From positions 1,054,001-1,118,000 of the forward strand of contig NZ_CP013074.1 of NCBI RefSeq assembly GCF_001889305.1: DNA of 64,000 nt, in the 5' to 3' direction. Within the stretch, counting starts at the first letter, position 1, and each line of letters starts with the position of its first letter. Positions 1,590-21,370 of the stretch are shown piece by piece. This stretch comes from Dehalococcoides mccartyi. GTDB lineage: Bacteria; Chloroflexota; Dehalococcoidia; Dehalococcoidales; Dehalococcoidaceae. The notes under the pieces were generated by a model, which was not told the origin of the DNA, searched no databases, and was given only the letters and a program-made list of their open reading frames with translations. Made by a program: the position numbers and the translations under genes.

Positions 1590-2288
1590 TTATCCCGTAG
1601 TTTCCTCAGGTATATTTTTTTCGGACATTTCGCACTTGTTTTCCGGAGGGATGATACCTCTTTGCAAAGCGTAACGCAACAATTGGGTTTGGTTACGCAA
1701 ATCCAGTTTACGCATCATGTTGGCACGGTGAACTTCTACGGTACGGGGTGATATAAAAAGTTTTTCTGCTATTTCGGCACAGGTATACCCCTGTGATACC
1801 AGATGCAACACTTCCCTTTCCCGTATAGTTAAAGTTTCATACGGATCAAGTGATGTTGCTTCGGCAGACTTTTCCATATAGGCTTCAATAGCTTTTTCAG
1901 AAAGCGGCGGACTGAGATAACGATGCCCAAGCATTGCTTCTCTCACTGACCTTACCAGTTCCTCGGAAGTGGAGTCCTTAAGCACGTAAGCCCGAGCCCC
2001 TGCCCTCAAGGCTTCATGTACATAAGCTTCATTACCATACATAGACAAAATTACTACCGCTGTTTTGGGTGAACGTTTGACTACCTGATAAGTAACCTCT
2101 ATGCCGCTCATACCGCCCATCATCAGGTCAGTTACCAGCACATTCGGCTGCAGGCTTTCGGTCAGGTTTACCGCTTCAATACCGTCTGAAGCTTCACCCA
2201 CCACATTAAAATCAATTTCAGCCTCAAGCAGTACCTTTAAACCATGCCGCACGATATGATGATCATCTGCCAGTACTATACTTATCAT
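1590..2288 (-). CDS. NarL/FixJ-family two-component response regulator
   Basis: 232 aa: receiver domain (about residues 1-120) with the acidic pair in VLADDHH, phosphoacceptor Asp in VTDLMM and Lys in VLKDST, then a LuxR-type helix-turn-helix (about 150-215) with LTIREREVLHLVSQG and ISPRTVEVHRANMM. Its ATG overlaps the TGA of the upstream kinase gene by 4 nt, so the two are translationally coupled and form a cognate pair. It should act as a DNA-binding transcription regulator phosphorylated by that kinase. Target genes are not evident; the structured-RNA unit immediately downstream, with its palindrome, is one candidate. Confidence 0.93.
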   Translation of the reverse strand: MISIVLADDHHIVRHGLKVLLEAEIDFNVVGEASDGIEAVNLTESLQPNVLVTDLMMGGMSGIEVTYQVVKRSPKTAVVILSMYGNEAYVHEALRAGARAYVLKDSTSEELVRSVREAMLGHRYLSPPLSEKAIEAYMEKSAEATSLDPYETLTIREREVLHLVSQGYTCAEIAEKLFISPRTVEVHRANMMRKLDLRNQTQLLRYALQRGIIPPENKCEMSEKNIPEETTG

Positions 2289-5200
2289 GGCTCGCCTCCG
2301 CTAATTCTGTCCTTTTCTTCACTCAAGGGCAGTTCAACTATAATATGTGTACCTGCACCCGGTTTGGATTCTATATCCAGTTTACCACCAAGAAAACGCA
2401 CCCGTTCTTTCATACCCTTTAAACCGCTTGACATACCGGTAGCACGCTGGGCAGGGTTGAAGCCTTTGCCTTTATCCTGAATAACCAAAGCCAGATGGTT
2501 TTTATCCGCCTTCGCCCGCACAAGCACGTTGTCAACCCCCGCGTAACGTACAACATTTGTAAGAGCTTCCTGAATAATCCTGTATACAGCAGTGCCCAAC
2601 TGGGGAGAAAACTTGCGTTTAAGACCGGCATGCTGGAAATTTACGTTTATACCCGTCTGGCTGGTAAAACGATCAAAATACCAGAGTAAAGCCGGCAGCA
2701 GACCCAAATCATCCAGCATACGGGGACGCAAATCAAGTGACATATTTCTGACACTGCTTATAAGTTCACTAACCAGAGGTTGAGCTTCGGCCAGTAATTC
2801 CTCTGCCTTGTCAGGAAGACCATCTTTTGCTTTATCCAGCATCAGTTTCAAAACCGTAAGCGATTGCCCCACTTGGTCATGCAGTTCACGGGCGATAATT
2901 GACCGCTCTTCTTCCTGAAGCTCAACCAAACGCTGGGAAAGGGTATGCAATTCGTATTCCGCAGCCTTCCGCTCACTTATATCACGCGACGCCCCCAGTA
3001 TACCCAGAAAATGGTGATTTTCATCATACAGCGGGCGCATAAGCGTCTCGGTCATTATTATCTTGCCGTCCTGCCGCATAACATCCAGTTCCAGCGGGTT
3101 TACAATAAGCTCAGACCCGGTTTTGCGTACCTGCTGATATACATCCAGCAATTTTTCGTAAGATTCGGGGGTAAATATCATGGAAATATGTTTGCCCAAT
3201 ATATCCTCAGGGTAATAGTTGAGCAGACGGATAATGGACGGGGAAAGATAACTGGTATTTAAATGTTCGTCAATAGTCCAGATAAATGCCACCATGTTAT
3301 CCGCCAGCAGACGATACCGTCTTTCGCTGTCCCTCAGGGCTTCTTCAGCCATTTTTTGTTCGGTGACGTCCTGAACAGTACCCAACACCCGCAGGGGAAT
3401 ACCTGTATCGCTCAGGGTTATTTCCGCCTGTTCATGCACATACCTCAAATGTCCGTCAGGCCGTATTATGCGGTGGTCTGTATTTATCTTCGATCCTGAA
3501 ATTATGGCCTTTTGGGCTTCGGACCGTACAATATCCCTGTCATCAGGGTGGATCATTTCCATAACCTGTTTCAAACCCGTGATACCGTTTTTAGGAGATA
3601 AACCGAGTATATTGTAGACCTCATCTGACAGCAGCAGTTTATGCCCTAAAAGGTCATAATCCCAATTGCCGATATGGGCAATCCTCTCTGCTTGAGCCAG
3701 CAAACCTGCCTGATACCGCAGAATTATCTGCTCCATCTGGCTCCGCTCCGTAACATCATGGAAAAGGGTCAGCTTGGAATTGCTGCCATCAGGGTTTTTA
3801 ATAGGTGTAGCCATAAGTTCATAATCCCGCTGGTTGTGCGGAGAATGCCACTCCCAGCGAACAGTCTGCCCGCTTAAAACTTCTTTGTTTTTGCAATATT
3901 CGCAGGGACTGCTGTTGTTGTGGAAATAGTCATAACATTTTTTGCCGTTTATAGGCCCGAACTGGGCCATAAGCGGCGGATTAACATACTCTATTTCATA
4001 GTCAGCATTTACAATATAAACCCCGTCTTCCATAGCATCCAGTATGCCCCGCAGCTTATCCCTCTCCAGTTTCAGGGCGGCGTCAGCTTTTTTCCTCTCG
4101 GTGATATCGCGGGCTACCGAAATAACCATAAGCTGTCCGCTCAACTCAAATTGCTGAATATTAACTTCAACCGGTATAGAAGTACCATCACGGCGTATAT
4201 GCCTCTGTTCAGTAATAACCCTACCTTCTTTTTTCAACATTTTGGTGGCGTCAGCCATTGCCCCGGTAGAAGCAGGGGCATCTATCTGGCAGGGAGACAT
4301 ATTTAACAACTCCTGGCGGCTGTATCCGAGACGCTTGCAGGCTACCTCGTTAACTTCCACAAAATTGCTATTGCAGCCGTCTGGAGTTATGTAATATACA
4401 AAAACCGCATCACCAAAGCTGTTAAACAAAAAGCGATAGCGCTTTTCGCTTTCTTCCAGCATTTCGCGAGTTCGGTTGCTCCTGAAAGCGATAGCGGCAA
4501 GCGAGCTAAAAGAAGCGGCTACCCTGATATCGGATACATCAAACCCGCCTGTCTTGTTGAAAAGAGCCATCAGGCCAACACTCCGCCCGCTAAGACGCAC
4601 CGGAGCAAAAAGAGCATTTTTTAAATCAGGGTAAGCGGCCGTATAAAATTCATTATCATTTTCAGCTGCAAAGTTGTTTTCCAATACAGGCTTTCCACTG
4701 AAACAGGACTGTAAAGCCAATCCGCTAAGAAGCACAAACACGGGAAGTTCCGGCTGATTTTTTGTGCTATCAAGGTAAATGATACGGCAAACTCCATCCT
4801 CTATATGCCCCACAAAACCGCTCTGGCAGGAGGTGATTTTCTTGCAGGAAGAATACACTGCCATAGCAGCTTCCGTAAAACCGGTATGCTCCAGTATGGC
4901 ACGTGACGCCTCAAGCAGTGCCGTCGTTTCACGGGTACGCCGGCGGGTTTCCTCCAGTGAAAATTTCAAAGCCAATTCCATCTGTTTGCGGACAGTAGTC
5001 TCTAACAAGGAAAATATCAGCCCTTGAACCCTCCCACGGGAGTTTTTGATAGGCACCAAGCTCCAATCCCAGTAGGTAGTACCCCTCCACGGCTGGTCAG
5101 AATACTCAAAAGGCTTGTCATGAAATTCCACGGATTTGCCGGTTTTAACTACCCTCTTAAAAATTGCTTCGTTTTCAGTACTAGGGAAGAGTACAAAATG

Positions 5201-5965
5201 GTTTGCACCTATCAGTTCATCTTCCGTATGTCCGCAATTTTTTACGTATGCTTTATTTGCTTTAACAAAGTTGAAATCTCTATCTAAAAAAACCAGCTGG
5301 GCGGTTGTATTATCCATAATAGACTTAAGAGATTGGTTGTCACGAGATATATCATCCCTTATTTCCTTATCCTGCAAGGCAGTGGCTTTTAACATTTTTT
5401 CCTGTTTGGAAATAATGTTTTTATACTTGCTTATATTTGAAACTACCATCAATACACCGTTAAAATTGTTACCCTTCCCGAATGGCACTGAAACGTGGAA
5501 AACTACCCAGACCAAACGCCCGTTACCCTTCCTTAGCTGAAGCTCATAACGGGATGAAACACCTTTTTTATGCCTTTCCCATTGGGCAAGAATAATTGGT
5601 ATATAGGATTTGCCTGCAAGTTCAAATATACTTTTGCCTTTGAGTACATCAAGCGGATAGCCGGCTATTTGGCTGAAACGGGGATTAACCAGCGTTATCC
5701 GTCCTGCGGCATCTGTGAGTATTACTCCCTCACCTGCAGTTTCCGCAATACGGCAACAGGCTTCTAAGGCATCCATTGCATTTTCCTGTACAAAACCCCC
5801 GGAAGATGTACCGCGAGTATTACTTAAAATCTGAAAAGACGCACCCGAAGATACTCTTTCGGAAGAACAAAGAGCGGTCTGGTTTGAAAGCAGTTTATCG
5901 TAGCGGCACTGCAGATCTTCAAGCTCTGCAACCAGCTGGGCATTGGTTTTGCGAATGTTACCCAT
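2285..5965 (-). CDS. Large cytosolic multi-PAS/GAF sensor histidine kinase (HisKA_3 type)
   Basis: 1226 aa without membrane segments. Approximate order: short N-terminal coiled region, PAS (77-180), PAS (215-330), GAF (345-510), four more PAS domains (520-630, 640-745, 760-875, 885-1005), then a HisKA_3 dimerisation/phosphoacceptor domain with RELHDQVGQS (His near 1029) and a HATPase_c domain (about 1110-1220) with ALTNVVRYA, DKGKGF and GLKGMKERV. The fourth PAS domain carries Cys residues in a C-x10-C-x2-C arrangement (CYDYFHNNSSPCEYC), suggesting a redox-active or metal-binding sensor. The ATG at 5965 follows GGGGGTGAT. A NarL-type partner overlaps downstream. The ligand is unknown; a soluble, multi-input sensor fits detection of cytoplasmic redox or small molecules. 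Confidence 0.92.
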   Translation of the reverse strand: MGNIRKTNAQLVAELEDLQCRYDKLLSNQTALCSSERVSSGASFQILSNTRGTSSGGFVQENAMDALEACCRIAETAGEGVILTDAAGRITLVNPRFSQIAGYPLDVLKGKSIFELAGKSYIPIILAQWERHKKGVSSRYELQLRKGNGRLVWVVFHVSVPFGKGNNFNGVLMVVSNISKYKNIISKQEKMLKATALQDKEIRDDISRDNQSLKSIMDNTTAQLVFLDRDFNFVKANKAYVKNCGHTEDELIGANHFVLFPSTENEAIFKRVVKTGKSVEFHDKPFEYSDQPWRGTTYWDWSLVPIKNSRGRVQGLIFSLLETTVRKQMELALKFSLEETRRRTRETTALLEASRAILEHTGFTEAAMAVYSSCKKITSCQSGFVGHIEDGVCRIIYLDSTKNQPELPVFVLLSGLALQSCFSGKPVLENNFAAENDNEFYTAAYPDLKNALFAPVRLSGRSVGLMALFNKTGGFDVSDIRVAASFSSLAAIAFRSNRTREMLEESEKRYRFLFNSFGDAVFVYYITPDGCNSNFVEVNEVACKRLGYSRQELLNMSPCQIDAPASTGAMADATKMLKKEGRVITEQRHIRRDGTSIPVEVNIQQFELSGQLMVISVARDITERKKADAALKLERDKLRGILDAMEDGVYIVNADYEIEYVNPPLMAQFGPINGKKCYDYFHNNSSPCEYCKNKEVLSGQTVRWEWHSPHNQRDYELMATPIKNPDGSNSKLTLFHDVTERSQMEQIILRYQAGLLAQAERIAHIGNWDYDLLGHKLLLSDEVYNILGLSPKNGITGLKQVMEMIHPDDRDIVRSEAQKAIISGSKINTDHRIIRPDGHLRYVHEQAEITLSDTGIPLRVLGTVQDVTEQKMAEEALRDSERRYRLLADNMVAFIWTIDEHLNTSYLSPSIIRLLNYYPEDILGKHISMIFTPESYEKLLDVYQQVRKTGSELIVNPLELDVMRQDGKIIMTETLMRPLYDENHHFLGILGASRDISERKAAEYELHTLSQRLVELQEEERSIIARELHDQVGQSLTVLKLMLDKAKDGLPDKAEELLAEAQPLVSELISSVRNMSLDLRPRMLDDLGLLPALLWYFDRFTSQTGINVNFQHAGLKRKFSPQLGTAVYRIIQEALTNVVRYAGVDNVLVRAKADKNHLALVIQDKGKGFNPAQRATGMSSGLKGMKERVRFLGGKLDIESKPGAGTHIIVELPLSEEKDRISGGEP

Positions 5966-10842: not shown

Positions 10843-12174
10843 CTATAGAACGGGCAGATATCTCTTAAGTTCCCAGTCCGTAACAGCCATGCTGTACTGA
10901 GTCCACTCTATTTTCTTGTTAGCAATAAATGCCTCGTGAACATGTTCACCCAAAGCTTCACGCATCAGGGCGCTGCCCTCAGTCAGCTTCAGGGCTTCCA
11001 GCAAACTGCCGGGCAAAGTACCGATGCCGCGTTTAGCACGCTCAGCTTCGTTCATCTCATAGACATTCTCTTCTATGGGAGCAGGAGGAGTCAGTTTGTC
11101 CTCAATACCCTTAAGACCGGCGGCCAGCATAACGCTGAAAGCCAGATAAGGGTTACAACCCGGATCAGCAGAGCGAAGCTCTATGCGGGTAGATTTTTCA
11201 TGTCCTGGTTTGTACTCAGGTACACGTACCAGATCAGCCCGGTTGCGCCGTGCCCAGGAAAGATACACAGGAGCTTCAAAACCGGGTACAAGCCGTTTAT
11301 ACGAGTTAATCCACTGGTTGGTGACTGCGGTAAATTCGGGGGCATACTTAAGGATACCGGCTACGTACTGCTTAGCCATAGGTGACAGATAGTAGGAATC
11401 TTTGGCATCAAAGAAAGCGTTTTTATCACCCTTGAAAAGACTCTGGTGAGTATGCATACCGGAGCCATTTACAGAAGCTACAGGTTTGGGCATAAAGCTG
11501 GCATGCAATCCATGACGCAAAGCCACTTCTTTGACCAGCAGCCTGTAAGTCATAACATTGTCCGCCATGGTTAAAGCATCGGTATAGCGGATATCAATTT
11601 CATGCTGGCTGGGAGCGACTTCGTGGTGGGCATATTCAACTATTATACCCATATCCTGCAAAGCCACTATGGTTTCGCGGCGAAGGTCAGTTGCCAAATC
11701 ACGGGGAGTCAGGTCAAAATAGCCGCCTTCATCTAAAAACTCGGTTGAGCGGTCATTCTTGAAGTAAAAATACTCCAGCTCAGGCCCGACATAGAATGTA
11801 AGACCCATATCAGCCGCTTTTTTCAGGTTCCTCTTAAGGACGTAGCGGGGGTCACCTTCAAACTGCTCGCCGGACGGATGTTTGATATCGCAAAACATCC
11901 GGGCAACCTGATATTCGCCATTAGACCAGGGCATAATCCGGAAAGTATCCGGGTCAGGCAAGGCAACCATGTCAGATTCATCTATACGGGCATAACCTTC
12001 AATAGAAGAACCGTCCAAACCCATACCGTCTTCCAAAGCCCTTTCAAGCTCGTTATAGGCAATGGAATAACTCTTCAAGGTGCCTAAAATATCAGTAAAC
12101 CACAGGCGGATAAACCGTACATTATGATCCTTAGCCGTTTTAAGAACGTACTCTACAGATTCTGCCCTCGTCAT
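10843..12174 (-). CDS. glnA: Glutamine synthetase type I
   Basis: 443 aa, the short class I-alpha length (no adenylylation segment of the long beta type is evident). Visible: N-terminal beta-grasp part, the latch motif LDGSSIEGYARIDESD, metal-site Glu in YVGPELEYFYF, HHEVAPSQHEID, and NGSGMHTHQSL. It makes glutamine from glutamate, ammonia and ATP and is the entry point of ammonia assimilation. The ATG at 12174 follows AGGAG. The 121-nt gap from glnB contains an 11-bp-phased GlnR-like operator and a hairpin, so glnA has its own regulated promoter in addition to possible read-through from amtB-glnB. Confidence 0.97.
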   Translation of the reverse strand: MTRAESVEYVLKTAKDHNVRFIRLWFTDILGTLKSYSIAYNELERALEDGMGLDGSSIEGYARIDESDMVALPDPDTFRIMPWSNGEYQVARMFCDIKHPSGEQFEGDPRYVLKRNLKKAADMGLTFYVGPELEYFYFKNDRSTEFLDEGGYFDLTPRDLATDLRRETIVALQDMGIIVEYAHHEVAPSQHEIDIRYTDALTMADNVMTYRLLVKEVALRHGLHASFMPKPVASVNGSGMHTHQSLFKGDKNAFFDAKDSYYLSPMAKQYVAGILKYAPEFTAVTNQWINSYKRLVPGFEAPVYLSWARRNRADLVRVPEYKPGHEKSTRIELRSADPGCNPYLAFSVMLAAGLKGIEDKLTPPAPIEENVYEMNEAERAKRGIGTLPGSLLEALKLTEGSALMREALGEHVHEAFIANKKIEWTQYSMAVTDWELKRYLPVL

Positions 12175-12216: not shown

Positions 12217-12245
12217 AAATCAGTTGTTTAGTCTACCAGTTATAT

Positions 12246-12283
12246 ATTTCAGTATTATTTCACAATTGTTTCAGAAATGTTAC
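12246..12283 (-). promoter_or_regulatory. GlnR-like operator upstream of glnA (four 11-bp-phased half-sites)
   Basis: Read on the minus strand from 12283: GTAAC-n6-GAAAC-n6-GAAAT-n6-GAAAT, each half-site exactly 11 bp from the next. The first pair matches the actinobacterial GlnR consensus gTnAc-n6-GaAAc as I remember it. It ends 71 nt before the glnA ATG, with only a weak TAGACT -10 candidate and no -35 downstream, as expected for an activator-dependent promoter. Confidence 0.7.
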
Positions 12284-12295
12284 GTCTCGTACAGT

Positions 12296-12634
12296 CTAGA
12301 CTGCTTCAGCGCCTGTTTCACCTGTACGGATACGTATTACCTGCTCAACCGGCATTATGAATATTTTACCATCTCCGATACGTCCGGTTCGAGCAGCCTT
12401 GACAATGGCATCAACTGCAACCTGGCAGTCATCATCATGGCAAATCATTTCCAGTTTCAGCTTGGGCAGGAACTCTACCCGGTACTCACCTACTCTCCAT
12501 TGCAGCGGAACGCCCTTTTGCTTTCCGCGTCCGCTTACTTCGGTTACAGTCAGCCCGGCAAATCCTGCCAGTTCCAATGCTTTTCTAACAGATTCCAATC
12601 TTTCTTCGCGGATAATGGCTTCTATCTTTTTCAT
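12296..12634 (-). CDS. glnB: Nitrogen regulatory protein PII
   Basis: 112 aa. The T-loop reads GRGKQKGVPLQW then RVGEYRVEFLP, keeping the Tyr of the E-Y pair that is uridylylated in many PII proteins, and the B-loop is TGRIGDGKIFI. PII senses 2-oxoglutarate and ATP/ADP and controls AmtB and nitrogen enzymes. The ATG overlaps the stop of amtB by 4 nt, the usual amtB-PII pairing. The T-loop middle (VPLQW) differs from the common QTEIYRG type, so partner recognition may be distinctive. Whether it is covalently modified cannot be told; no GlnD is in the window. Confidence 0.95.
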   Translation of the reverse strand: MKKIEAIIREERLESVRKALELAGFAGLTVTEVSGRGKQKGVPLQWRVGEYRVEFLPKLKLEMICHDDDCQVAVDAIVKAARTGRIGDGKIFIMPVEQVIRIRTGETGAEAV

Positions 12635-13857
12635 CTTAAACTCCCACCATAAGCCCGTTCAGAGTGCTGGGCAATATCAAGCCCTATCATTTCTTCGGGT
12701 TCTTTAACACGCAGACCTACCAGCTTATCCACAACCTTGGCTATTATGAAGCTGCCAACGAAGGCAAAGCCGGCTGTAACAGCCACACCCAAAGCCTGTT
12801 TTAGGAACAGTTCCACGTTACCGGACAAAAGACCGTCAGCACCGGCAGAGTTTACTGCTACGCTGGCAAAGATACCTGTTGCCAAAGCACCCCAGATACC
12901 GCCTACACCATGTACCGCCATAACATCCAGGGAATCATCAAATCCGCGTTTCATCTTGAATATCATAGCACCGTAGCAAACCAAAGCTGCCACCGCACCG
13001 ATAGCGATAGCCGCCAAAGGTGTTACAAAACCAGCCGCAGGGGTAATAGCTACCAAACCGGCAACTGCACCGGTAACAGCACCCAGCAATGATGGACGGC
13101 GGTGACGCCAGCTAAGGAATATCCAGCACAGAGCTGCGCTGGCAGCTGCAGTGTTAGTAGTAACAAAAGCATTTGAAGCCAGACCACCGGCAGTTAAAGC
13201 GCTGCCGCCGTTGAAACCGAACCAGCCGAACCAGAGCAGAGCCGCACCCAGCATAACCATGGGCAGGTTGTTGGGTTCCATCTGTTCCTTAAGGAAACCA
13301 CGGCGGGCACCCAGTGCAAATACCAAAGCCATTGCGGAAACACCAGCGTTAATGTGTACAACAGTACCGCCGGCAAAGTCCAAAACACCCAGATTGAATA
13401 ACCATCCGCCATCACCCCAGACCCAATGGGCAATGGGTGAGTAAATAAGGCAAAGCCAGAGCGCTCCGAACAGGAGCAAGGCGCTAAAGCGGATTCTCTC
13501 TACTACTGCACCGGTAATAAGGGCCAGAGAGATAATAGCAAACATACCCTGGAACATCATGAAGGCTAAATGAGGTACAGTAGTTGCATAAGTGTCAGAC
13601 GGGTCTTGCCCCACCCCATTTAAACCCAGAAAGTTCAGGCCGCCTACCAGACCGCTGATATCGTTACCGAAACCAAGGCTGTAGCCGATCAGAACCCAGA
13701 GTACGCCACCCAGGGCCATAGCGCCAAAGCTCATCATCAGGGTGGAAACCAGATTTTTACGCCGGACCATGCCTCCGTAAAACAGAGCCACGCCCGGAGT
13801 CATTAGCATGACCAGAGCGGTGGAGACAAGTAGCCAAGTCGTATCGCCGCTGTCCAT
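12631..13857 (-). CDS. amtB: Ammonium transporter
   Basis: 408 aa with about 11 membrane segments. Family features are visible: an early hydrophobic helix ending GVALFYGGMVRRKN, WVLIGYSLGFG, the pore segment FAGGTVVHINAG with the first conserved His, and DVMAVHGVGGIWGAL with the second. It conducts ammonium/ammonia across the membrane. It lies 4 nt overlapping glnB. GGAGGG precedes the ATG, and a GlnR-like operator ends 73 nt upstream, so expression is probably nitrogen controlled. The length is typical for Amt proteins that lack a long C-terminal extension. Confidence 0.96.
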   Translation of the reverse strand: MDSGDTTWLLVSTALVMLMTPGVALFYGGMVRRKNLVSTLMMSFGAMALGGVLWVLIGYSLGFGNDISGLVGGLNFLGLNGVGQDPSDTYATTVPHLAFMMFQGMFAIISLALITGAVVERIRFSALLLFGALWLCLIYSPIAHWVWGDGGWLFNLGVLDFAGGTVVHINAGVSAMALVFALGARRGFLKEQMEPNNLPMVMLGAALLWFGWFGFNGGSALTAGGLASNAFVTTNTAAASAALCWIFLSWRHRRPSLLGAVTGAVAGLVAITPAAGFVTPLAAIAIGAVAALVCYGAMIFKMKRGFDDSLDVMAVHGVGGIWGALATGIFASVAVNSAGADGLLSGNVELFLKQALGVAVTAGFAFVGSFIIAKVVDKLVGLRVKEPEEMIGLDIAQHSERAYGGSLR

Positions 13858-13872
13858 AACTAAACCCTCCTT

Positions 13873-13894
13873 CTGTATACTTATTTATATACAG
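13873..13894 (-). promoter_or_regulatory. Inverted repeat beside the amtB ribosome binding site
   Basis: CTGTATA-n8-TATACAG immediately precedes the GGAGGG ribosome binding site of amtB. It may form a weak leader hairpin or be a second protein site; the role is not known. Confidence 0.3.
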
Positions 13895-13930
13895 TTTAGC
13901 TATGGCAGGTTAAAAACAGATTAACGCCGT

Positions 13931-13968
13931 ATTGCAATCAAATTAAATTTAAGTTTCAGGAATATTAC
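13931..13968 (-). promoter_or_regulatory. GlnR-like operator upstream of amtB (11-bp-phased half-sites)
   Basis: Read on the minus strand from 13968: GTAAT-n6-GAAAC-n6-TTAAT-n6-GCAAT. The first 16 bp differ from the glnA site at only two positions (GTAATATTCCTGAAAC against GTAACATTTCTGAAAC). The second pair is weaker but keeps the 11-bp phase. It ends 73 nt before the amtB ATG. Confidence 0.65.
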
Positions 13969-14000: not shown

Positions 14001-14672
14001 TCAAAAACGGCGTTTAAAACGGTAGCCTATGTTACGCACGGTCTCAACAAATGTATGAGAGGAATCTTCTATCTTGCCCCGCAGGCGGGTTATGTGGACA
14101 TCTACGGTGCGGTCTCCGCCGTAATAGTCATATCCCCACACCTTATTAAGCAAAGCCTCACGGGAAAAAACACGTCCCCGGTTTTGGGCTAAGAATTTTA
14201 AAAGTTCAAACTCACGGAATGTCAGGTCAAGCAGCCGCCCTGACAGAGTGACTTCACAGCCAAGGGTATCTATTACAAGATCACCTGCTTTTATAATACC
14301 CGGCTCACTCATCCCCCATTTTTCAGCCAACCGCGCCAGGCGGACTTTCAGTTCGCCCATAGAACCGGGCCAGCGGATAAAATCATCCAGCCCAGGGTTA
14401 AGAGCAATATTCTCGTAATCATCTACAGGTAACAGACCCATTACCAGCGGATTTCTATCTAAATGAACATCTTCAGGAATTTCCCATTCGGATGGCTCAT
14501 TTTGCAGGCTGGTAAAATCCAGCAAAATAATATCGGGGGCAACTTCGGATAATAAGGGGTAGGCTAAAACAAAAGAGGCCGCCTGTTTTATTTCAAACCG
14601 GTCAGCCTCCAATTCCCTAAGCAAATTACCAATTTTTTTTATATCAGCAGTGATAATTAACAGTTTTAACAA
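14001..14672 (-). CDS. GlnR-like orphan OmpR-family transcriptional regulator
   Basis: 223 aa. The atypical receiver (1-115) keeps the phosphoacceptor-position Asp (IILLDF) but only one of the two acidic N-terminal residues (ITADIK), and lacks both the Thr/Ser and the Lys that sense phosphorylation (Lys position is Trp in FIRWP). The winged helix (130-223) has LDLTFREFELLKFLAQ, VWGYDYYGGDRTVDVHITR and TVRNIGYRF, which closely resembles my memory of Streptomyces GlnR. The start appears to be TTG with AAGG upstream. It lies 21 nt after GltB domain 3 as the probable last gene of the glutamate synthase operon, with no kinase nearby. Likely role: nitrogen-responsive control of glnA, amtB and the glutamate synthase operon. 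Confidence 0.8.
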   Translation of the reverse strand: MLKLLIITADIKKIGNLLRELEADRFEIKQAASFVLAYPLLSEVAPDIILLDFTSLQNEPSEWEIPEDVHLDRNPLVMGLLPVDDYENIALNPGLDDFIRWPGSMGELKVRLARLAEKWGMSEPGIIKAGDLVIDTLGCEVTLSGRLLDLTFREFELLKFLAQNRGRVFSREALLNKVWGYDYYGGDRTVDVHITRLRGKIEDSSHTFVETVRNIGYRFKRRF

Positions 14673-14693: not shown

Positions 14694-15464
14694 TTAATAA
14701 GCGTACATCCTGCCATAAGGCCTGAGATATTTCGGATAAAGCTTGTAGAAAGGCCTGGCAGCTATCTCCTCTGCATTATAACCAAAGTGGAGAGCAAATT
14801 CATCAATTAAAGGGCGTAAAGTTTTCCAGTCTGCCTCATCCAACTCAGCAATAGCCACTTCTTTGCCAAGCTGGTGTTCCTCAACCTTGCCGCTCATATA
14901 TATTACACCGCCATGCATGCCCGTGCCTATAAAGTTGGCCTTGTGGGTTTCGTTTTCCCCAAGCCCCAAACCCAGTACTACCAGCACGCCTCCAGCCATG
15001 TACTCACCCAGAAAGTCCTGAGCGGTATTCCCGATAACCAAAGAAGGTTTTTTATCCTGATAGGCTTTCATGTGAATACCGGCACGGTAACCTACGTAAT
15101 CACGTACAAAGAGTTTGCCGCCGCGGGCAGACATACCGAATATATCCCCGCCATGCCCGTGAACGACAATACAGCCATTATTCAGAGTATTGCCGCAGCA
15201 ATCCTGCACATTGCCGTTTACCGTTATGCTGGGGCCATCCATAAAAGCTCCAAGGTCATTGCCGGGTGTGCCGTTTATGGTTATTTTAAGGTCACCTTTA
15301 AGGCTGGTACCGATATAACGCTGGCCGCAGGCATTGTTAAGCTCCAAAGAGCGGACACCCTGATTTACCAGCTCTGCCAAACGGGTATTAAGCTCACGGT
15401 AATAAACACCGTGCAAATTTACACAGGCAGTATCCTGGTTTTGTTTCACTTCAATGCTATTCAT
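14694..15464 (-). CDS. Glutamate synthase, GXGXG (GltB domain 3) subunit
   Basis: 256 aa. The right-handed beta-helix repeats of the glutamate synthase alpha C-terminal domain are visible as glycine-rich turns: GTPGNDLGAFMDG, VQDCCGNTLNNGCIVVHGHGG, GYRAGIHMKAYQ, GTGMHGGVIYMSG. In archaeal-type split GOGAT the three domains of GltB are separate proteins; this is the structural third domain. Its ATG is directly adjacent to the stop of the domain 2 gene (no gap), indicating tight coupling and probable complex formation. Confidence 0.88.
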   Translation of the reverse strand: MNSIEVKQNQDTACVNLHGVYYRELNTRLAELVNQGVRSLELNNACGQRYIGTSLKGDLKITINGTPGNDLGAFMDGPSITVNGNVQDCCGNTLNNGCIVVHGHGGDIFGMSARGGKLFVRDYVGYRAGIHMKAYQDKKPSLVIGNTAQDFLGEYMAGGVLVVLGLGLGENETHKANFIGTGMHGGVIYMSGKVEEHQLGKEVAIAELDEADWKTLRPLIDEFALHFGYNAEEIAARPFYKLYPKYLRPYGRMYAY

Positions 15465-16967
15465 TTATTCACCTGCCGCCCTTACTCCAAGAATTTTCAG
15501 CTCTTCAGCGGATAGACCTACACCTCGCAGATGGAGGCGGTTGCCTCTGAGGCTTTCAATAGCATTTACGCCCAAGCCGCCCAGCATATCTTTAATCTCA
15601 AGGCTCCAGCCGCGCAGCAGATTGGAAAGGCGTTTAGCACCTATCTCAGGGTTTATACGCTTGGTTAAAGCTAAGTCCGAGGTACAAATACCCCAGGCAC
15701 ATTTGCCGGTATGGCATTGCTGGCAAAGATGACAGCCTAAAGCTACTAAAGCCGCCGTACCTATATTGACAGCATCAGCACCCAGGGCAATAGCCTTGAA
15801 AACGTCACCGCTGTTGCGGATACCGCCAGAAATCACCAGTGAAGCCTGATTACGGATACCCTCTTCACGTAAGCGTGAATCAACCGCCGCCAGAGCCAGC
15901 TCAATAGGTATACCCACATTATCACGGATAACCTTGGGGGCAGCACCGGTAGCACCCCGCATACCGTCAATGGTCACTATATCCGCACCCGCCCGAACTA
16001 TACCGCTGGCAATAGCCGAAACGTTATGTACCGCCGCAATCTTTACCGAAATAGGTACGCGGTAACGGGTGGCTTCTTTAAGCGCATATATAAGCTGAGA
16101 CAAATCTTCAATAGAGTAAATATCATGCTGGGGAGCAGGGGAAATAGCATCTGTCCCCATGGGTATCATACGGGTAAGTGAAACATCAGCACTCACCTTT
16201 TCACCGGGTAAATGGCCGCCAATGCCGGGCTTGGCACCCTGGCCTATCTTGATTTCCACTATACGCCCTGAATTAAGGTAATCATTTTGAACGCCGTAAC
16301 GTCCTGAAGCTACCTGGACTATGGTGTTATCTTTAAATTCCATCAAGCTGGAGTGAAGACCGCCTTCACCGGTATTCCACATAGTGCCCATATTTTTAGC
16401 TGCCTGAGCCAGAGAACGGTGGACATTCAGGCTGATTGCGCCGTAAGACATGGCAGAGAACATAACCGGCACATCTATTTTCACCAGGGGGGTAATGTTT
16501 TCTTTCACATTACCGCAATTATCAAAAGCGGCTTTTTCAGGCCTGCGCCCCAAATAGGTGGTAAGTTCCATAGGCTCACGCAGAGGATCTATGGAAGGGT
16601 TGGTTACCTGTGAAGCGTTTATAAGCAGTTTATCCCAGTAAATGGGTTTAGCCTTATCCATGCCCATACCGGTAAGGAGAACGCCGCCTGTTTCAGCCTG
16701 CTTGAAAATATCCTCTATCATTTCGGGCGTCCAGTTGGCATTCTGGCGGTATTCCAAAGGATTATTCCGCACGACCAGTGCATTAGTGGGACAGAAGGTC
16801 ACACAGCGGTGACAACCCACACAGTTCTGGTTGCGGACCTTTATCTGGTCATCATCTTCGTCGTAATAGTGGGTATCAAAGCTGCATTGAGTTATGCAAA
16901 CCTTGCACTTGATACAACGGTCTTCAATCCTGTCTACTATAAATTTAGAAGGTAAAAATGTCTTCAT
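15465..16967 (-). CDS. Glutamate synthase, FMN-binding synthase (GltB domain 2) with ferredoxin domain
   Basis: 500 aa. The N-terminal 70 residues hold two cysteine clusters (CIKCKVCITQC and CVGCHRCVTFCP) for [4Fe-4S] centres. The rest is the FMN-binding TIM barrel of glutamate synthase with PGIGGHLPGEKV, VTIDGMRGATGAAP, VISGGIRNSGDVFKAIALG and the Cys-rich CHLCQQCHTGKCAWG loop for the family [3Fe-4S]/[4Fe-4S] site. It transfers ammonia to 2-oxoglutarate, making glutamate with reduced ferredoxin or the associated reductase. One base separates it from hisF upstream; it abuts domain 3 downstream. Confidence 0.93.
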   Translation of the reverse strand: MKTFLPSKFIVDRIEDRCIKCKVCITQCSFDTHYYDEDDDQIKVRNQNCVGCHRCVTFCPTNALVVRNNPLEYRQNANWTPEMIEDIFKQAETGGVLLTGMGMDKAKPIYWDKLLINASQVTNPSIDPLREPMELTTYLGRRPEKAAFDNCGNVKENITPLVKIDVPVMFSAMSYGAISLNVHRSLAQAAKNMGTMWNTGEGGLHSSLMEFKDNTIVQVASGRYGVQNDYLNSGRIVEIKIGQGAKPGIGGHLPGEKVSADVSLTRMIPMGTDAISPAPQHDIYSIEDLSQLIYALKEATRYRVPISVKIAAVHNVSAIASGIVRAGADIVTIDGMRGATGAAPKVIRDNVGIPIELALAAVDSRLREEGIRNQASLVISGGIRNSGDVFKAIALGADAVNIGTAALVALGCHLCQQCHTGKCAWGICTSDLALTKRINPEIGAKRLSNLLRGWSLEIKDMLGGLGVNAIESLRGNRLHLRGVGLSAEELKILGVRAAGE

Positions 16968-16968
16968 C

Positions 16969-17730
16969 TTAGTTCTCCAGCCTTACCGGCAAACCCTTGC
17001 TCTTAAGATATTGTTTTACTTCGGCTATAGTGTAACGCCCGTAATGGAAAATGCTGGCCGCCAGCACCGCATCTGCCTGCCCTTTATCCAGGGCGTTATA
17101 CAAGTCTTCCGGGCTACCCGCCCCGCCTGAAGCGATAACGGGTATATTCAAGCGGGAACTGATTTCCCGGTTAAGCTCATTGTCATATCCGGTATTTTTA
17201 CCGTCGGCATCAATACTGGTCAGGAGTATTTCTCCAGCACCCAGTGCTTCTGCCTTAATAGTCCACTCCACCGCATCCAGCCCGGCGGGTTTCTTTCCGC
17301 TATGAGTATAAACCTGCCAGCCGCTGCCTTCACGTTTAGCATCAACAGCCACTACAATACACTGCCGGCCGAATTTTTCAGCTCCCCGGCTTATCAAATC
17401 CGGGGTAGATACGGCTGCCGAATTTATAGAGACCTTGTCAGCTCCGGCCCGAAGCAGAGTATTCATATCCGCAATGCTCCGCAAACCGCCGCCCACACAC
17501 AGAGGTATAAAAACCTCCTTAGATACCTGCTCTACCACCTCGGCCATAGTCTTGCGTTCTTCGGTAGTAGCTGAAATATCTAAAAACACCAGTTCGTCAG
17601 CACCTTCGCGGTAGTAACGCGCCGCCAGTTCCACCGGGTCACCGGCATCACGCAGATTTACAAAACTGGTACCTTTAACTACCCGTCCGTTATTCACATC
17701 TAAACATGGAATAACCCGTTTATTCAGCAT
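16969..17730 (-). CDS. hisF: Imidazole glycerol phosphate synthase cyclase subunit
   Basis: 253 aa, the normal HisF length. (beta-alpha)8 barrel motifs: [15 protein letters not shown] with the catalytic first Asp, [30 protein letters not shown] with the second catalytic Asp, [13 protein letters not shown]. With HisH it makes imidazole glycerol phosphate and AICAR in histidine synthesis. It overlaps GltB domain 1 by 7 nt and is 1 nt from GltB domain 2, so it is embedded in the glutamate synthase operon rather than a his operon. Both activities use glutamine-derived ammonia. Confidence 0.97.
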
Positions 17731-18854
17731 GCAGTAGCTTCCTTTTGCGCCTTGATGGGATTTTTCAAGCTGCCCACTACCGGAACACCGCCAACGGGCA
17801 ACCAGACTTTATCCAGTTCCGGTTGCACCAACCGGATAGCAGACTCTTCTGACGAAATAAACAGCTTTGACTGATATTCACCCACTACCATGGGTCGCAG
17901 ACGTATACGGTCTGTCATACCTATCATTTCGCCGGTATGGGCCACAATGACTGTAAACGGACCATTTAAAAGCAAACCGCCGTAAATCTGGCGAAGAGTA
18001 GTCATAATCTTGCGTTCGTGTTCCGGCAAACGGGCTATCTGATTCCAGAGAGGCGCAGACATTACTTTAGCCGCCAGCTCAATAGACAGACCGTGCTTAC
18101 GCATAAGCAGGTCTACCGCGTAGGCTACTACTTCGGTATCGGTTTCCATAGTGCATTTGTATCCGTACTGCTCCAGAAAACGCTTGTTTATGCCATAGGA
18201 AGAAATCTCCCCGTTATGCACCACTGTCCAGTCCAGCAGGCAGAACGGGTGAGCACCTCCCCACCAGCCTTTGGTATTGGTAGGAAAGCGTCCATGAGTA
18301 GTCCACAGATAACCTTCGTATTCTTCCAGGCGGAAAAAGCGCCCGATATCCTCAGGATAGCCCACACCCTTAAAGACACCCATGTTTTTGCCGCTTGAGA
18401 ACACAAAGGCATCATCTATGCAGGTGTTTATGTACATTACGCGGTCTACCACGTAATCTTCTTCAATAAATTTGCCGCATTTTTCAGGGCTGACCGAGGC
18501 AAAATACCGCCAGACAATGGGCGGGTTGGTAATTCCCTGCTGGTCACGGGTAGGAACTTCTTCCTTGTATTTCAGATTAAAAAAGCTTTCCAGAAAACAC
18601 TCTGTTTCCGTTTTAGCCTGCTGGCTGAGAAACATGATATGGAAAGCGTATTCTTCAGCAAAATCAGGGTAAATTCCGTAAGCGGCAAAGCCGCCGCCCA
18701 GACCGTTTCCACGGTCATGCATACTGCCGATGGCAGTAATCAAATCAGCCCCGGAGAAACGCCCCCCGGAGGTATCCATCATCCCGAAAAGCGAACAGGC
18801 ATCTATAACCTTGCTGTCCGAATGGCTATTGCTTACTCTAGTTAAGTCTCTCAT
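17724..18854 (-). CDS. Glutamate synthase glutaminase (GltB domain 1), class II amidotransferase
   Basis: 376 aa Ntn-type class II glutamine amidotransferase. Visible blocks: ACSLFGMMD with the likely nucleophile Cys at position 20, [31 protein letters not shown] and [12 protein letters not shown]. Because the Cys must be N-terminal in the mature enzyme, a 19-residue propeptide is predicted to be removed between Ala19 and Cys20. It releases ammonia from glutamine for the FMN synthase subunit. The gene lies 12 nt after the FAD oxidoreductase gene and overlaps hisF by 7 nt. Confidence 0.9.
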
Positions 18855-18866
18855 GGAAATCTCCTG

Positions 18867-20174
18867 CTAATGCTTGAAATCAGCCGGGGCTACCCTGCCC
18901 GAAGTATTGCCATGAAGGTGTTCTTCACGGCTGTCAGCCGGCAGATAGGCCAGACCAAAATTCTCATTAAGTATGTTATCTTTAATGGGGCGTACATCAC
19001 TCTGGTCACGCATAAGGCCGAATATAATACCGGCGGTATCCGTTTCGCCCAGGGTCAGCATGCCCACAATCTTGCCTTGTTCATTTAAAACCAGTTTCTT
19101 GTATCCGTTGGCGGTGAGTGCCGAAAGAACTTCAAGACCACTGGCATCCGGCGGCAATACCGACATACCAGCAGTGGCAATATCCATGCCGAAGTAGTTA
19201 AGAGAATTCATCACTGTACCGCCGTGATAGGTGGTAACCATACCGGCCATATTGTAACCGGCTATCCGCCCGCCTATATAAGCATTAGGCCAGATAGGAG
19301 TAACCCGGCGGCTGTTATAGATAAAATCAAAAGACTCACAAGCATCACCGCAGGCATATACATCAGGGTTGCTGGTACGCATATTGTCATTTACCACCAC
19401 CCCGCGGTTAACTTCCAGACCGGCGGCTTTAAACAGTTCTGTCCGGGGAATAACACCGATGGCTATTACCAGCATCTGGCTTTCTATCTGATGACCGTTG
19501 TCCAGCTCCACCCCGGCAACCTTGTGCAAACCCAGTACTTTACTCACAGTCCGTCCGGTGTTCAATTTTACACCATAAGAAGTAACTGTCTGAGCAGCTA
19601 TCTTGCCGGCTGCTTCATCCAGAATAGTATTCAGGATATGGCCTTTAAGCTCAATAATATCTACTTCAATACCCAGCTTAGTGAGGGCATCCGCGGCACT
19701 CATGCCAATAAGACCACCGCCTATGATAACAGCCTTCTTTACATTTTCGGCCTTTACATAGCTGTCTATCAAAGAGGCGTCTTTCATGTTTATAAAGTTA
19801 AAAACACCCGCCTTGTTTGACCCGTCAATCAGCGGTACAATGGGTTTGCCGCCGGGGGCAAGCAAGAGTTTGCCGTAACCAATCTTTTCCCCGTTTGAAA
19901 GGCTGACCTCATGGGCAGCAGTATCCACCGCTTCCACTTTGGTATCAGTCAGACAGGTAATATTGTTATTAGCATAAAATTCCGGACGGCGGAAAAGTAT
20001 TTTTTCCACGTTTTTTTGTCCGGAAAGATACTTGGCTATCATGGGGCGCGAATAAGCCAGATAAGGCTCTTCCCCCGCTATGACAATAGAACCGTCACGG
20101 TCCACTTCCCGAATAGCCTCTGCCGCGCCTATACCGCCGGCAGAACATCCTACAATCAAATAATCGGCTTTCAT
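18867..20174 (-). CDS. FAD/NAD(P)-dependent oxidoreductase of the glutamate synthase operon
   Basis: 435 aa pyridine nucleotide-disulfide reductase fold. The N-terminal FAD-binding motif reads LIVGCSAGGIGAAEAIRE, the NAD(P)-binding motif VIIGGGLIGMSAADAL, and the second FAD site VYACGDACESFDF. This resembles rubredoxin/NirB-type reductases. It probably moves electrons between NAD(P)H and the ferredoxin or GltB synthase subunit. Its ATG overlaps the stop of hisH by 4 nt. It does not look like the usual GltD beta subunit, so the reductant route may be different from that in proteobacteria. Confidence 0.85.
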   Translation of the reverse strand: MKADYLIVGCSAGGIGAAEAIREVDRDGSIVIAGEEPYLAYSRPMIAKYLSGQKNVEKILFRRPEFYANNNITCLTDTKVEAVDTAAHEVSLSNGEKIGYGKLLLAPGGKPIVPLIDGSNKAGVFNFINMKDASLIDSYVKAENVKKAVIIGGGLIGMSAADALTKLGIEVDIIELKGHILNTILDEAAGKIAAQTVTSYGVKLNTGRTVSKVLGLHKVAGVELDNGHQIESQMLVIAIGVIPRTELFKAAGLEVNRGVVVNDNMRTSNPDVYACGDACESFDFIYNSRRVTPIWPNAYIGGRIAGYNMAGMVTTYHGGTVMNSLNYFGMDIATAGMSVLPPDASGLEVLSALTANGYKKLVLNEQGKIVGMLTLGETDTAGIIFGLMRDQSDVRPIKDNILNENFGLAYLPADSREEHLHGNTSGRVAPADFKH

Positions 20175-20788
20175 TTTTTATCTCCCAGAGCCATCTTAAA
20201 AAAGTTTTGATATAACTTTAAGCCGTAGCTACCGCTCTTTTCCGGATGGAACTGGGTAGCGATAAGGCGTTTACTGATAACCAGACTGCAAAAATCCACT
20301 CCGTAGTCTGTGGTTGCCCCTATAATATGTTTGTCAGCAGGGCTGGCATAATAACTGTGGACAAAATAAAAATCAGCCCCGTCAGGTATACCCTCAAATA
20401 TGGGGTGTGAAACCCGCTGCTTGAGCTGATTCCAACCCATCTGGGGTATCTTTACCCCGTCAGGCAGGCGTTTTACTTTGCCTTTCAAAATACCAAGACA
20501 CTTTGCTTTATTCCCCTCTTCGGTGGAGTCAAAAAGCACCTGCATACCCACGCATATAGCCAGCAGGGGGATATCTCTCTTTACCAGCTCTTTTATAGCT
20601 TCATCCAGCCCCTTTGCCTTCAGCCCGGCAACCGTATCAGCCGCCGCACCCACTCCGGGCAGGATAACTGCCTGAGCAGAAAGAAGCTCCTTTGGGTCTG
20701 AAGTCAGGGTAAACTCATATCCCAAAGCATATATGGCATTCGCCACACTCTTTAGGTTACCCCCTCCGTAATCAACAAGCGCAATCAT
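20171..20788 (-). CDS. hisH: Imidazole glycerol phosphate synthase glutaminase subunit
   Basis: 205 aa class I amidotransferase. LVDYGGGNLKSV is the HisH start, Cys nucleophile in LLAICVGMQVLF, oxyanion region MGWNQL, and catalytic His-x-Glu in ATQFHPEKSG. It supplies ammonia to HisF. In this operon it is separated from hisF by the FAD oxidoreductase and GltB domain 1 genes, an unusual interleaving with glutamate synthase. Confidence 0.96.
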   Translation of the reverse strand: MIALVDYGGGNLKSVANAIYALGYEFTLTSDPKELLSAQAVILPGVGAAADTVAGLKAKGLDEAIKELVKRDIPLLAICVGMQVLFDSTEEGNKAKCLGILKGKVKRLPDGVKIPQMGWNQLKQRVSHPIFEGIPDGADFYFVHSYYASPADKHIIGATTDYGVDFCSLVISKRLIATQFHPEKSGSYGLKLYQNFFKMALGDKK

Positions 20789-20803
20789 CGTTTTACCAGC
20801 CTT

Positions 20804-21235
20804 TTAGCCGTCAACCAGCCCCAAGGCTTCATTTGGGCAGTTAGCTACACAGGCGGGTATTTCTTTACCGCCGCACAGATCACACTTGAGAATCACATGG
20901 TTTGCCTTGTCTTTTATAAGAGCACTGTTCGGGCAGGCCACAATGCATGTCCAACAGCCGATACATCTTTCAGGATCACTGGACACAATACCCGTTATAG
21001 GGTCACGGGTCATAGCCCCGCTGATGCAGGAATAAGCGCACCATGGCTCGTCACAGTGACGGCAGGGAACGGAGAAACTTATCTCACCCTTGCGTTCAAC
21101 CCGTATTCTGGGTTTCTGATTTTCCTTTTTGACGGCCTTTATAACGTCATGGGAGACTGAGTGTTCGGTCTGACAGGCTACACGGCACAGGCCGCAGCCC
21201 ATACAAAGTTCTTCTTTAATTTGTACCCTTTTCAT
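20804..21235 (-). CDS. Four-cluster ferredoxin-type electron transfer protein
   Basis: 143 aa from the ATG at 21235; an in-frame start further upstream at 21304 would overlap the -35 box, while 21235 follows AGGGG. Four cysteine groups are seen: CMGCGLCRVAC, CRHCDEPWCAYSC, CIGCWTCIVACP and CDLCGGKEIPACVANCP, the DmsB/HycB/CooF pattern for up to four [4Fe-4S] clusters. No signal peptide, so cytosolic. As the first gene of the glutamate synthase operon it probably donates electrons to the FMN synthase subunit, alone or through the FAD oxidoreductase. Confidence 0.85.
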   Translation of the reverse strand: MKRVQIKEELCMGCGLCRVACQTEHSVSHDVIKAVKKENQKPRIRVERKGEISFSVPCRHCDEPWCAYSCISGAMTRDPITGIVSSDPERCIGCWTCIVACPNSALIKDKANHVILKCDLCGGKEIPACVANCPNEALGLVDG

Positions 21236-21247
21236 ACTTACCCCTAC

Positions 21248-21304
21248 ATACGGTATATAACTTCCGTATTTATATAAATTAGCACTTAGATAATCGCTTG
21301 TCAA
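21248..21304 (-). promoter_or_regulatory. Promoter region and palindrome of the glutamate synthase operon
   Basis: A perfect TTGACA lies at 21304-21299 on the minus strand; the best -10 at 17 bp is a poor TAATTT, consistent with activation. ATACGG-n10-CCGTAT (21248-21253 and 21264-21269) lies between this promoter and the ATG, where a repressor could bind. Confidence 0.4.
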
Positions 21305-21332: not shown

Positions 21333-21370
21333 AATACATTATTATTTCGCAATCATTTCGCCTGTATTAC
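21333..21370 (-). promoter_or_regulatory. GlnR-like operator upstream of the glutamate synthase operon
   Basis: Read on the minus strand from 21370: GTAAT-n6-GAAAT-n6-GAAAT-n6-GTATT, all at exact 11-bp steps, matching the glnA site in layout. It ends 28 bp before the TTGACA and 97 nt before the ATG of the ferredoxin gene, and slightly overlaps the end of the mntP gene. Confidence 0.65.

Follow-up and report, generated by a model that had tools for sequence, protein, structure and literature searches.

A GlnR-like regulator with a degenerate receiver and putative promoter boxes at nitrogen assimilation genes in Dehalococcoides mccartyi

PhoB recognises 11-nt direct repeats, and its site lies about 10 nt from the −10 element. 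Bacillus GlnR and TnrA are members of the MerR family, unrelated as proteins and with an unrelated DNA site, and have only the name and the nitrogen role in common with the regulator described here. The circuit in which they act has been described (PMC9249791). Orphan OmpR-type regulators that act independently of phosphorylation and, like the present one, have degenerate receivers include H. pylori HP1043, Chlamydia ChxR and cyanobacterial NblR (PMC12632262), but these have other targets. GlnR itself has been described as an actinomycete regulator, and how it learns the nitrogen state of the cell is an open question; its published box is gTnAc-n6-GaAAc, and activation involves four winged helices placed head-to-tail together with a receiver tetramer (PMC10704036). 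At S. coelicolor amtB there are six GlnR sites, one of them at the −35 position (PMC5826061).

The regulator gene analysed here was found at 14001–14672 of the window, that is, the whole 64,000-nt stretch of D. mccartyi DNA that was analysed; this gene and all features of the window given below lie on the minus strand. Computation showed kinship of the encoded protein (223 aa, TTG start) with GlnR, a degenerate receiver, a conserved gene context, and box arrays with fixed spacing and genome-wide specificity. Immediately upstream lies the gene for the GXGXG domain protein of a split glutamate synthase (14694–15464), and these coordinates agree with the sequence-only reading that the regulator follows the last glutamate synthase gene by 21 nt. 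The run continues with the glutamate synthase FMN/ferredoxin-type subunit (15465–16967) and with hisF-like, amidotransferase, FAD oxidoreductase, hisH-like and ferredoxin-type genes (16969–21304), of which hisF, hisH and the ferredoxin-type gene were named from their sequence. The mixed histidine/glutamate layout, with hisF and hisH inside the split glutamate synthase run (16969–20788), recurs in relatives. The regulator ORF ends 143 nt ahead of amt, encoding an ammonium transporter (12631–13857), which is followed by glnB, the sole P-II gene of the genome (12296–12634), and by glnA, encoding glutamine synthetase (10843–12174); all three are predicted targets. Like the GlnR genes of Streptomyces, Mycobacterium, Saccharopolyspora and Amycolatopsis, this is an orphan OmpR-type gene with a similar winged helix, but it lies inside a nitrogen cluster, in a genome without GlnD/GlnE.

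No sensor kinase gene was found next to the regulator in the 64-kb window, as had been noticed from the sequence alone; the closest histidine kinase (2285–5965) is 8 kb off and adjoins its own LuxR-type regulator (1590–2288). This 1226-aa multi-PAS histidine kinase and its LuxR-type response regulator (1590–5965) form a self-contained pair unlinked to the nitrogen cluster. The TTG start of the regulator is common to both other genus members, and among 56 orthologs, with start codons picked as nearest to the homologous position, TTG was the most frequent (25), followed by ATG (24) and GTG (7). As the sequence-only reading proposed, a TTG start may keep the level of the protein low.

A survey of 301 Chloroflexota genomes gave strong matches to the regulator only in the class Dehalococcoidia, and the named relatives came from Dehalococcoidia and from a few MAGs labelled Omnitrophota, Deltaproteobacteria and others. 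This differs from the actinobacterial distribution of GlnR. The order gltS, GXGXG, regulator, amt, glnB, glnA, nadE was found at about 25 loci, with local gains and losses. In one Omnitrophota MAG (L041:4330–5411) two tandem regulator matches, possibly a duplication, were found between nadE and amt-glnB. Three MAGs labelled Deltaproteobacteria or Thermodesulfovibrionales (L017, L023 and L057) carried the full Dehalococcoidia gene order and may be misbinned or mislabelled. A literature search, which covered part of the literature, found no relevant report of GlnR in Chloroflexi or Dehalococcoides. Taken at the level of sequence, the results indicate a GlnR-like control circuit in Dehalococcoidia, a Chloroflexota class for which we found no earlier report.

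The pseudo-receiver domain (residues 1–120; 14313–14672) keeps Asp52, but Thr and Lys are gone and the acid pair is incomplete. In a 71-row alignment its active-site columns held T8/A9 (acid pair), D52, L80 (Thr site) and W101 (Lys site), with D10 one residue past the acid pair columns, whereas the acid pair, Asp, Lys, and Thr or Ser were kept in 10/10 typical regulators. The earlier description of a receiver with its Asp, without Thr/Ser and Lys and with an incomplete acid pair was thus confirmed. The same reading had named the presence of the missing residues at shifted positions as speaking against it; the sequence alignment showed no such Ser/Thr or Lys. No Pfam receiver family matched the regulator with an E-value as good as 0.1, as would be expected of a degenerate receiver. 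In the AlphaFold model (mean pLDDT 87.7), D52 lies where beta3 ends and W101 where beta5 ends; the receiver lacks helix 3, and the winged helix attached to it is modelled with confidence. Across the 56 orthologs the D-site was occupied by Asp in 28, Glu in 14, Asn in 5, Ala in 5 and other residues in 4, so the Asp stressed at first is lost in half of them; the Thr site was lost in 54/56 and the Lys site in 40/56. The genome also encodes another OmpR-type protein (L005; G000:C1, about 1502889–1503600) whose receiver has Asn at the Thr site but keeps Asp and Lys; this is possibly a further atypical receiver.

In actinobacterial GlnR, too, the receiver retains the Asp and lacks Thr and Lys, and an LDD motif stands before the lost Lys. 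That GlnR is characterised as a homodimer that carries no phosphate and switches on transcription when nitrogen runs short. It differs in its length (about 255 aa against about 223 aa), in having helix 3, which the model of the regulator lacks, and in its Arg52, whose position is not occupied by Arg in the regulator; in addition, half of the Dehalococcoidia clade has Glu, Asn, Ala or another residue at the D-site. In terms of the Asp50-Arg52-Thr9 network of GlnR, the regulator has Thr54 instead of the Arg, and Thr8 is present. Because this network is incomplete, the protein was classed as GlnR-like, a sister or variant lineage, and not as GlnR proper. From the missing residues we infer that the receiver serves as a dimerisation or oligomerisation module no longer run by aspartyl phosphorylation.

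The winged-helix DNA-binding domain (residues 124–222; 14007–14303) matched Pfam Trans_reg_C with 97 bits and showed about 52–54% identity to the GlnR domain 8hig (54% in the structural alignment). The top three matches of a sequence search against the PDB were all GlnR (8hig, 8hml and 8hih; 116, 111 and 110 bits), with the next protein at 86 bits, and a profile of the orthologs matched full-length GlnR at 176 and 168 bits, compared with 75 bits for HP1043 (2hqr). The Foldseek/VIA ranking gave the OmpR/PhoB fold; the whole protein did not single out GlnR, and within the VIA list the GlnR winged helix had the top identity (54%).

For the trees, GlnR was represented by genes of Nocardia, Nonomuraea and Tsukamurella, together with plasmid-borne GlnR-like genes of Rhodococcus; the Tsukamurella glnR has sulfurtransferase, LmeA and pst neighbours, as does glnR in M. 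tuberculosis. GlnR grouped with the regulator and its orthologs in an 86-row tree, apart from all typical OmpR/PhoB regulators (SH-aLRT 99), and a 68-row tree gave the same split (SH-aLRT 99.8). The winged helix alone repeated the GlnR grouping without intruders, at a support of only 77. A tree with GlnR beside two Nocardia regulators was 23 log units worse and was not rejected by the AU test (p 0.195). Actinobacterial GlnR was nested inside the Dehalococcoidia clade in the 86-row tree, but this nesting was not kept because a sister arrangement fits equally well (68-row tree, p-AU 0.776). Placement in a PhoB/WalR clade, which would have gone against the initial assignment, did not occur: the trees grouped the regulator with GlnR, and it reached only 115, 108 and 106 bits with the NCBIfam models for PhoB, MtrA and YycF (WalR), whose cut-offs are 296, 300 and 340. 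The NblR type, raised as an alternative at the outset, was rejected (82 bits with the NCBIfam NblR model, cut-off 300). Judged from its sequence, the Dehalococcoidia regulator is a GlnR-type nitrogen regulator and kin of actinobacterial GlnR. The resemblance of the winged helix to GlnR, first noticed in the sequence-only reading, was borne out by the sequence search, the whole-protein trees and the winged-helix tree, and also by boxes in the target promoters, which support it independently of the protein.

These cis-regulatory boxes go beyond the earlier reading. The amt promoter contains six putative five-mer GlnR boxes at 11-nt phase (GTAAT, GAAAC, TTAAT, GCAAT, TTAAT and TTAAC; 13909–13968), with a −10-like hexamer, TAAACT, 10 nt past the last box (13893–13898). 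The glnA promoter contains four (GTAAC, GAAAC, GAAAT and GAAAT; 12246–12283), again with a −10-like hexamer, TAGACT, 10 nt past the last box (12230–12235). Three putative boxes ahead of the regulator's own gene run (21344–21370) are kept in three genus members, which suggests autoregulation at this putative site, where there are just three good boxes and a conserved −10 is absent. The published GlnR box was found in 34/76 amt/glnA upstream regions compared with 1/119 control regions taken from the same loci (Fisher p=1e-15), counts that are not fully independent since the loci are related. Nearly all boxes upstream of amt and glnA had a single orientation. Arrays mostly had four or six five-mers (range 4–6) at 11-nt phase, and in 31/32 arrays the distance from the array end to TANNNT was exactly 10 nt. 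The geometry, with six boxes at amt and four elsewhere, is like that of actinobacterial GlnR promoters, which share the gTnAc-n6-GaAAc boxes, the 11-nt phase, four to six boxes per promoter, a box at the −35 place, and amt-glnK/glnB and glnA as targets (PMC10704036, PMC5826061). A Nocardia amtB promoter showed GAAAC boxes at 11-nt phase, with no clear −10.

Searching the 1.52-Mb genome with the full grammar returned two sites, glnA (12230–12283) and amt (13893–13946, the array extending to 13968), and the reversed-genome control gave zero matches. A loose two-box pattern, GTNAY-n6-GAAAC, had 26 matches compared with 52 in the reversed control and was dropped as too weak for genome-wide evidence; specificity was seen with the multi-box grammar alone. 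One perfect four-box match without the −10 spacing (G000:C1:1184684) was taken as chance. Across genomes, the full grammar was present in 28/38 Dehalococcoidia and in 4/263 other Chloroflexota (p=6.5e-27). Five of the 29 class genomes with an ortholog lacked a full array, and four of the nine without a clear ortholog had one. Among the 27 class loci with the full pattern, the array directly preceded amt or glnA in 25, and preceded nifH in one and pstS in one. The nifH locus, from a genome of the same family (L198:587–1435, minus strand, genome G020), has a perfect four-box array with TATAAT at 10 nt, and nifH is followed by two P-II genes; from this array, nitrogen fixation seems to belong to the regulon in one relative. 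At the other locus (L206, Dehalococcoidia genome G106), a pstS-like gene is preceded by a TTAAC-type array, again with a spacing of 10 nt. A Pho-type box can thus satisfy the array pattern, and the grammar of Pho-type control seems to be very similar.

We consider it highly probable that the regulator is a GlnR-type activator of nitrogen assimilation with a phosphorylation-independent receiver that binds the amt and glnA arrays; what we infer is its binding to the boxes, activation upon binding, and a shortage of nitrogen as the trigger. The winged helix would bind GTAAY/GAAAY five-mers, four to six of them, arranged head-to-tail at 11-nt intervals, with amt-glnB, glnA, the regulator's own glutamate synthase run (three boxes) and, in one relative, nifH as predicted targets. 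It would oligomerise on the array and substitute for the −35 contact. As the last boxes lie over the −35 place, 10 nt from the −10, the geometry makes it most likely that the bound regulator recruits RNA polymerase as GlnR and PhoB do. Ammonium uptake and glutamine synthetase would be raised and, via the regulator's own gene run, glutamate synthase as well.

As to the signal, no GlnD or GlnE domains were found in the genome, and the single P-II protein (glnB) has a T-loop with Trp at the position of the Tyr that is uridylylated in E. coli GlnB. The genome thus probably lacks the usual covalent P-II route, and P-II here probably works by ligand binding alone. With a single P-II and no GlnD/GlnE, the signal would probably come through direct contact, another modification or the amount of the regulator; candidates for direct contact are P-II, glutamine synthetase or a metabolite. 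We tentatively raise a further reading, possible though doubtful, in which the Dehalococcoidia clade is a sister lineage of GlnR whose receiver is a direct protein or metabolite sensor needing neither phosphate nor Asp. This receiver would be informed of the nitrogen state by the single P-II, by glutamine synthetase or by a metabolite; if true, GlnR control would exist here in a minimal and perhaps ancestral form.

Several other explanations were weighed. That the regulator is an always active oligomer whose output is set by its amount only, through autoregulation and a weak TTG start, with no nitrogen sensing, we regard as unlikely. Such a constitutive activator would accord with the absent phosphorylation site set, the genome without GlnD/GlnE, the possible autoregulatory site and the frequency of TTG starts in the clade, but the output of actinobacterial GlnR varies with nitrogen while its own transcript changes little (PMC10704036), and P-II and GlnA are encoded next door. 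Convergence, with a receiver that decayed independently and boxes that reflect a widespread ancestral winged-helix specificity, appears improbable: the non-degenerate winged helix yields the same grouping without intruders, the receivers have the LDD(F/I) motif in common, and box sequence, 11-nt phase, box numbers and target genes are all the same as for GlnR, against which stand the long receiver branches, the missing Arg52, the winged-helix support of 77 and the other GlnR placement left unrejected by the AU test. It is very improbable that the arrays are real but bound by another OmpR/PhoB paralog, such as the PhoB-type protein of the genome, with the regulator as a bystander or co-regulator. 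Pho-type regulators also read 11-nt direct repeats, and the array before pstS in one relative is rich in TTAAC; however, the arrays track the class that carries the regulator (28/38 against 4/263), the box sequence agrees with the one published for GlnR, the genes targeted, amt, glnA and nifH, are not phosphate genes, and the regulator gene, which may have its own upstream site, lies between its own predicted targets. Least credible is an ordinary PhoB/WalR-type response regulator that lies near nitrogen genes by chance and is phosphorylated by a distant kinase: PhoB, PhoP, WalR and MtrA share its domain order and fold, Asp52 is kept, the genome has many other sensor kinases and loss of Thr or Lys does not always prevent phosphorylation of a receiver (PMC12632262), but those regulators keep the phosphorylation residues and a partner kinase and are separate in the tree, whereas here the acid pair, Thr and Lys are all altered, Asp is replaced in 28/56 orthologs with the same gene context, the family models score far under their cut-offs, the tree places the protein with GlnR and a kinase gene nearby is absent.

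A GlnR-like regulator using the same promoter code in a genome of 1.5 Mb that has a single P-II and lacks GlnD/GlnE offers a much smaller system in which to search for the GlnR signal. Orthologs with Asp, Glu, Asn or Ala at the D-site form a natural series that provides a ready test of the role of the receiver without phosphate. For Dehalococcoides-like bacteria, which are used in the clean-up of chlorinated solvents, the arrays give a precise and testable regulon prediction.
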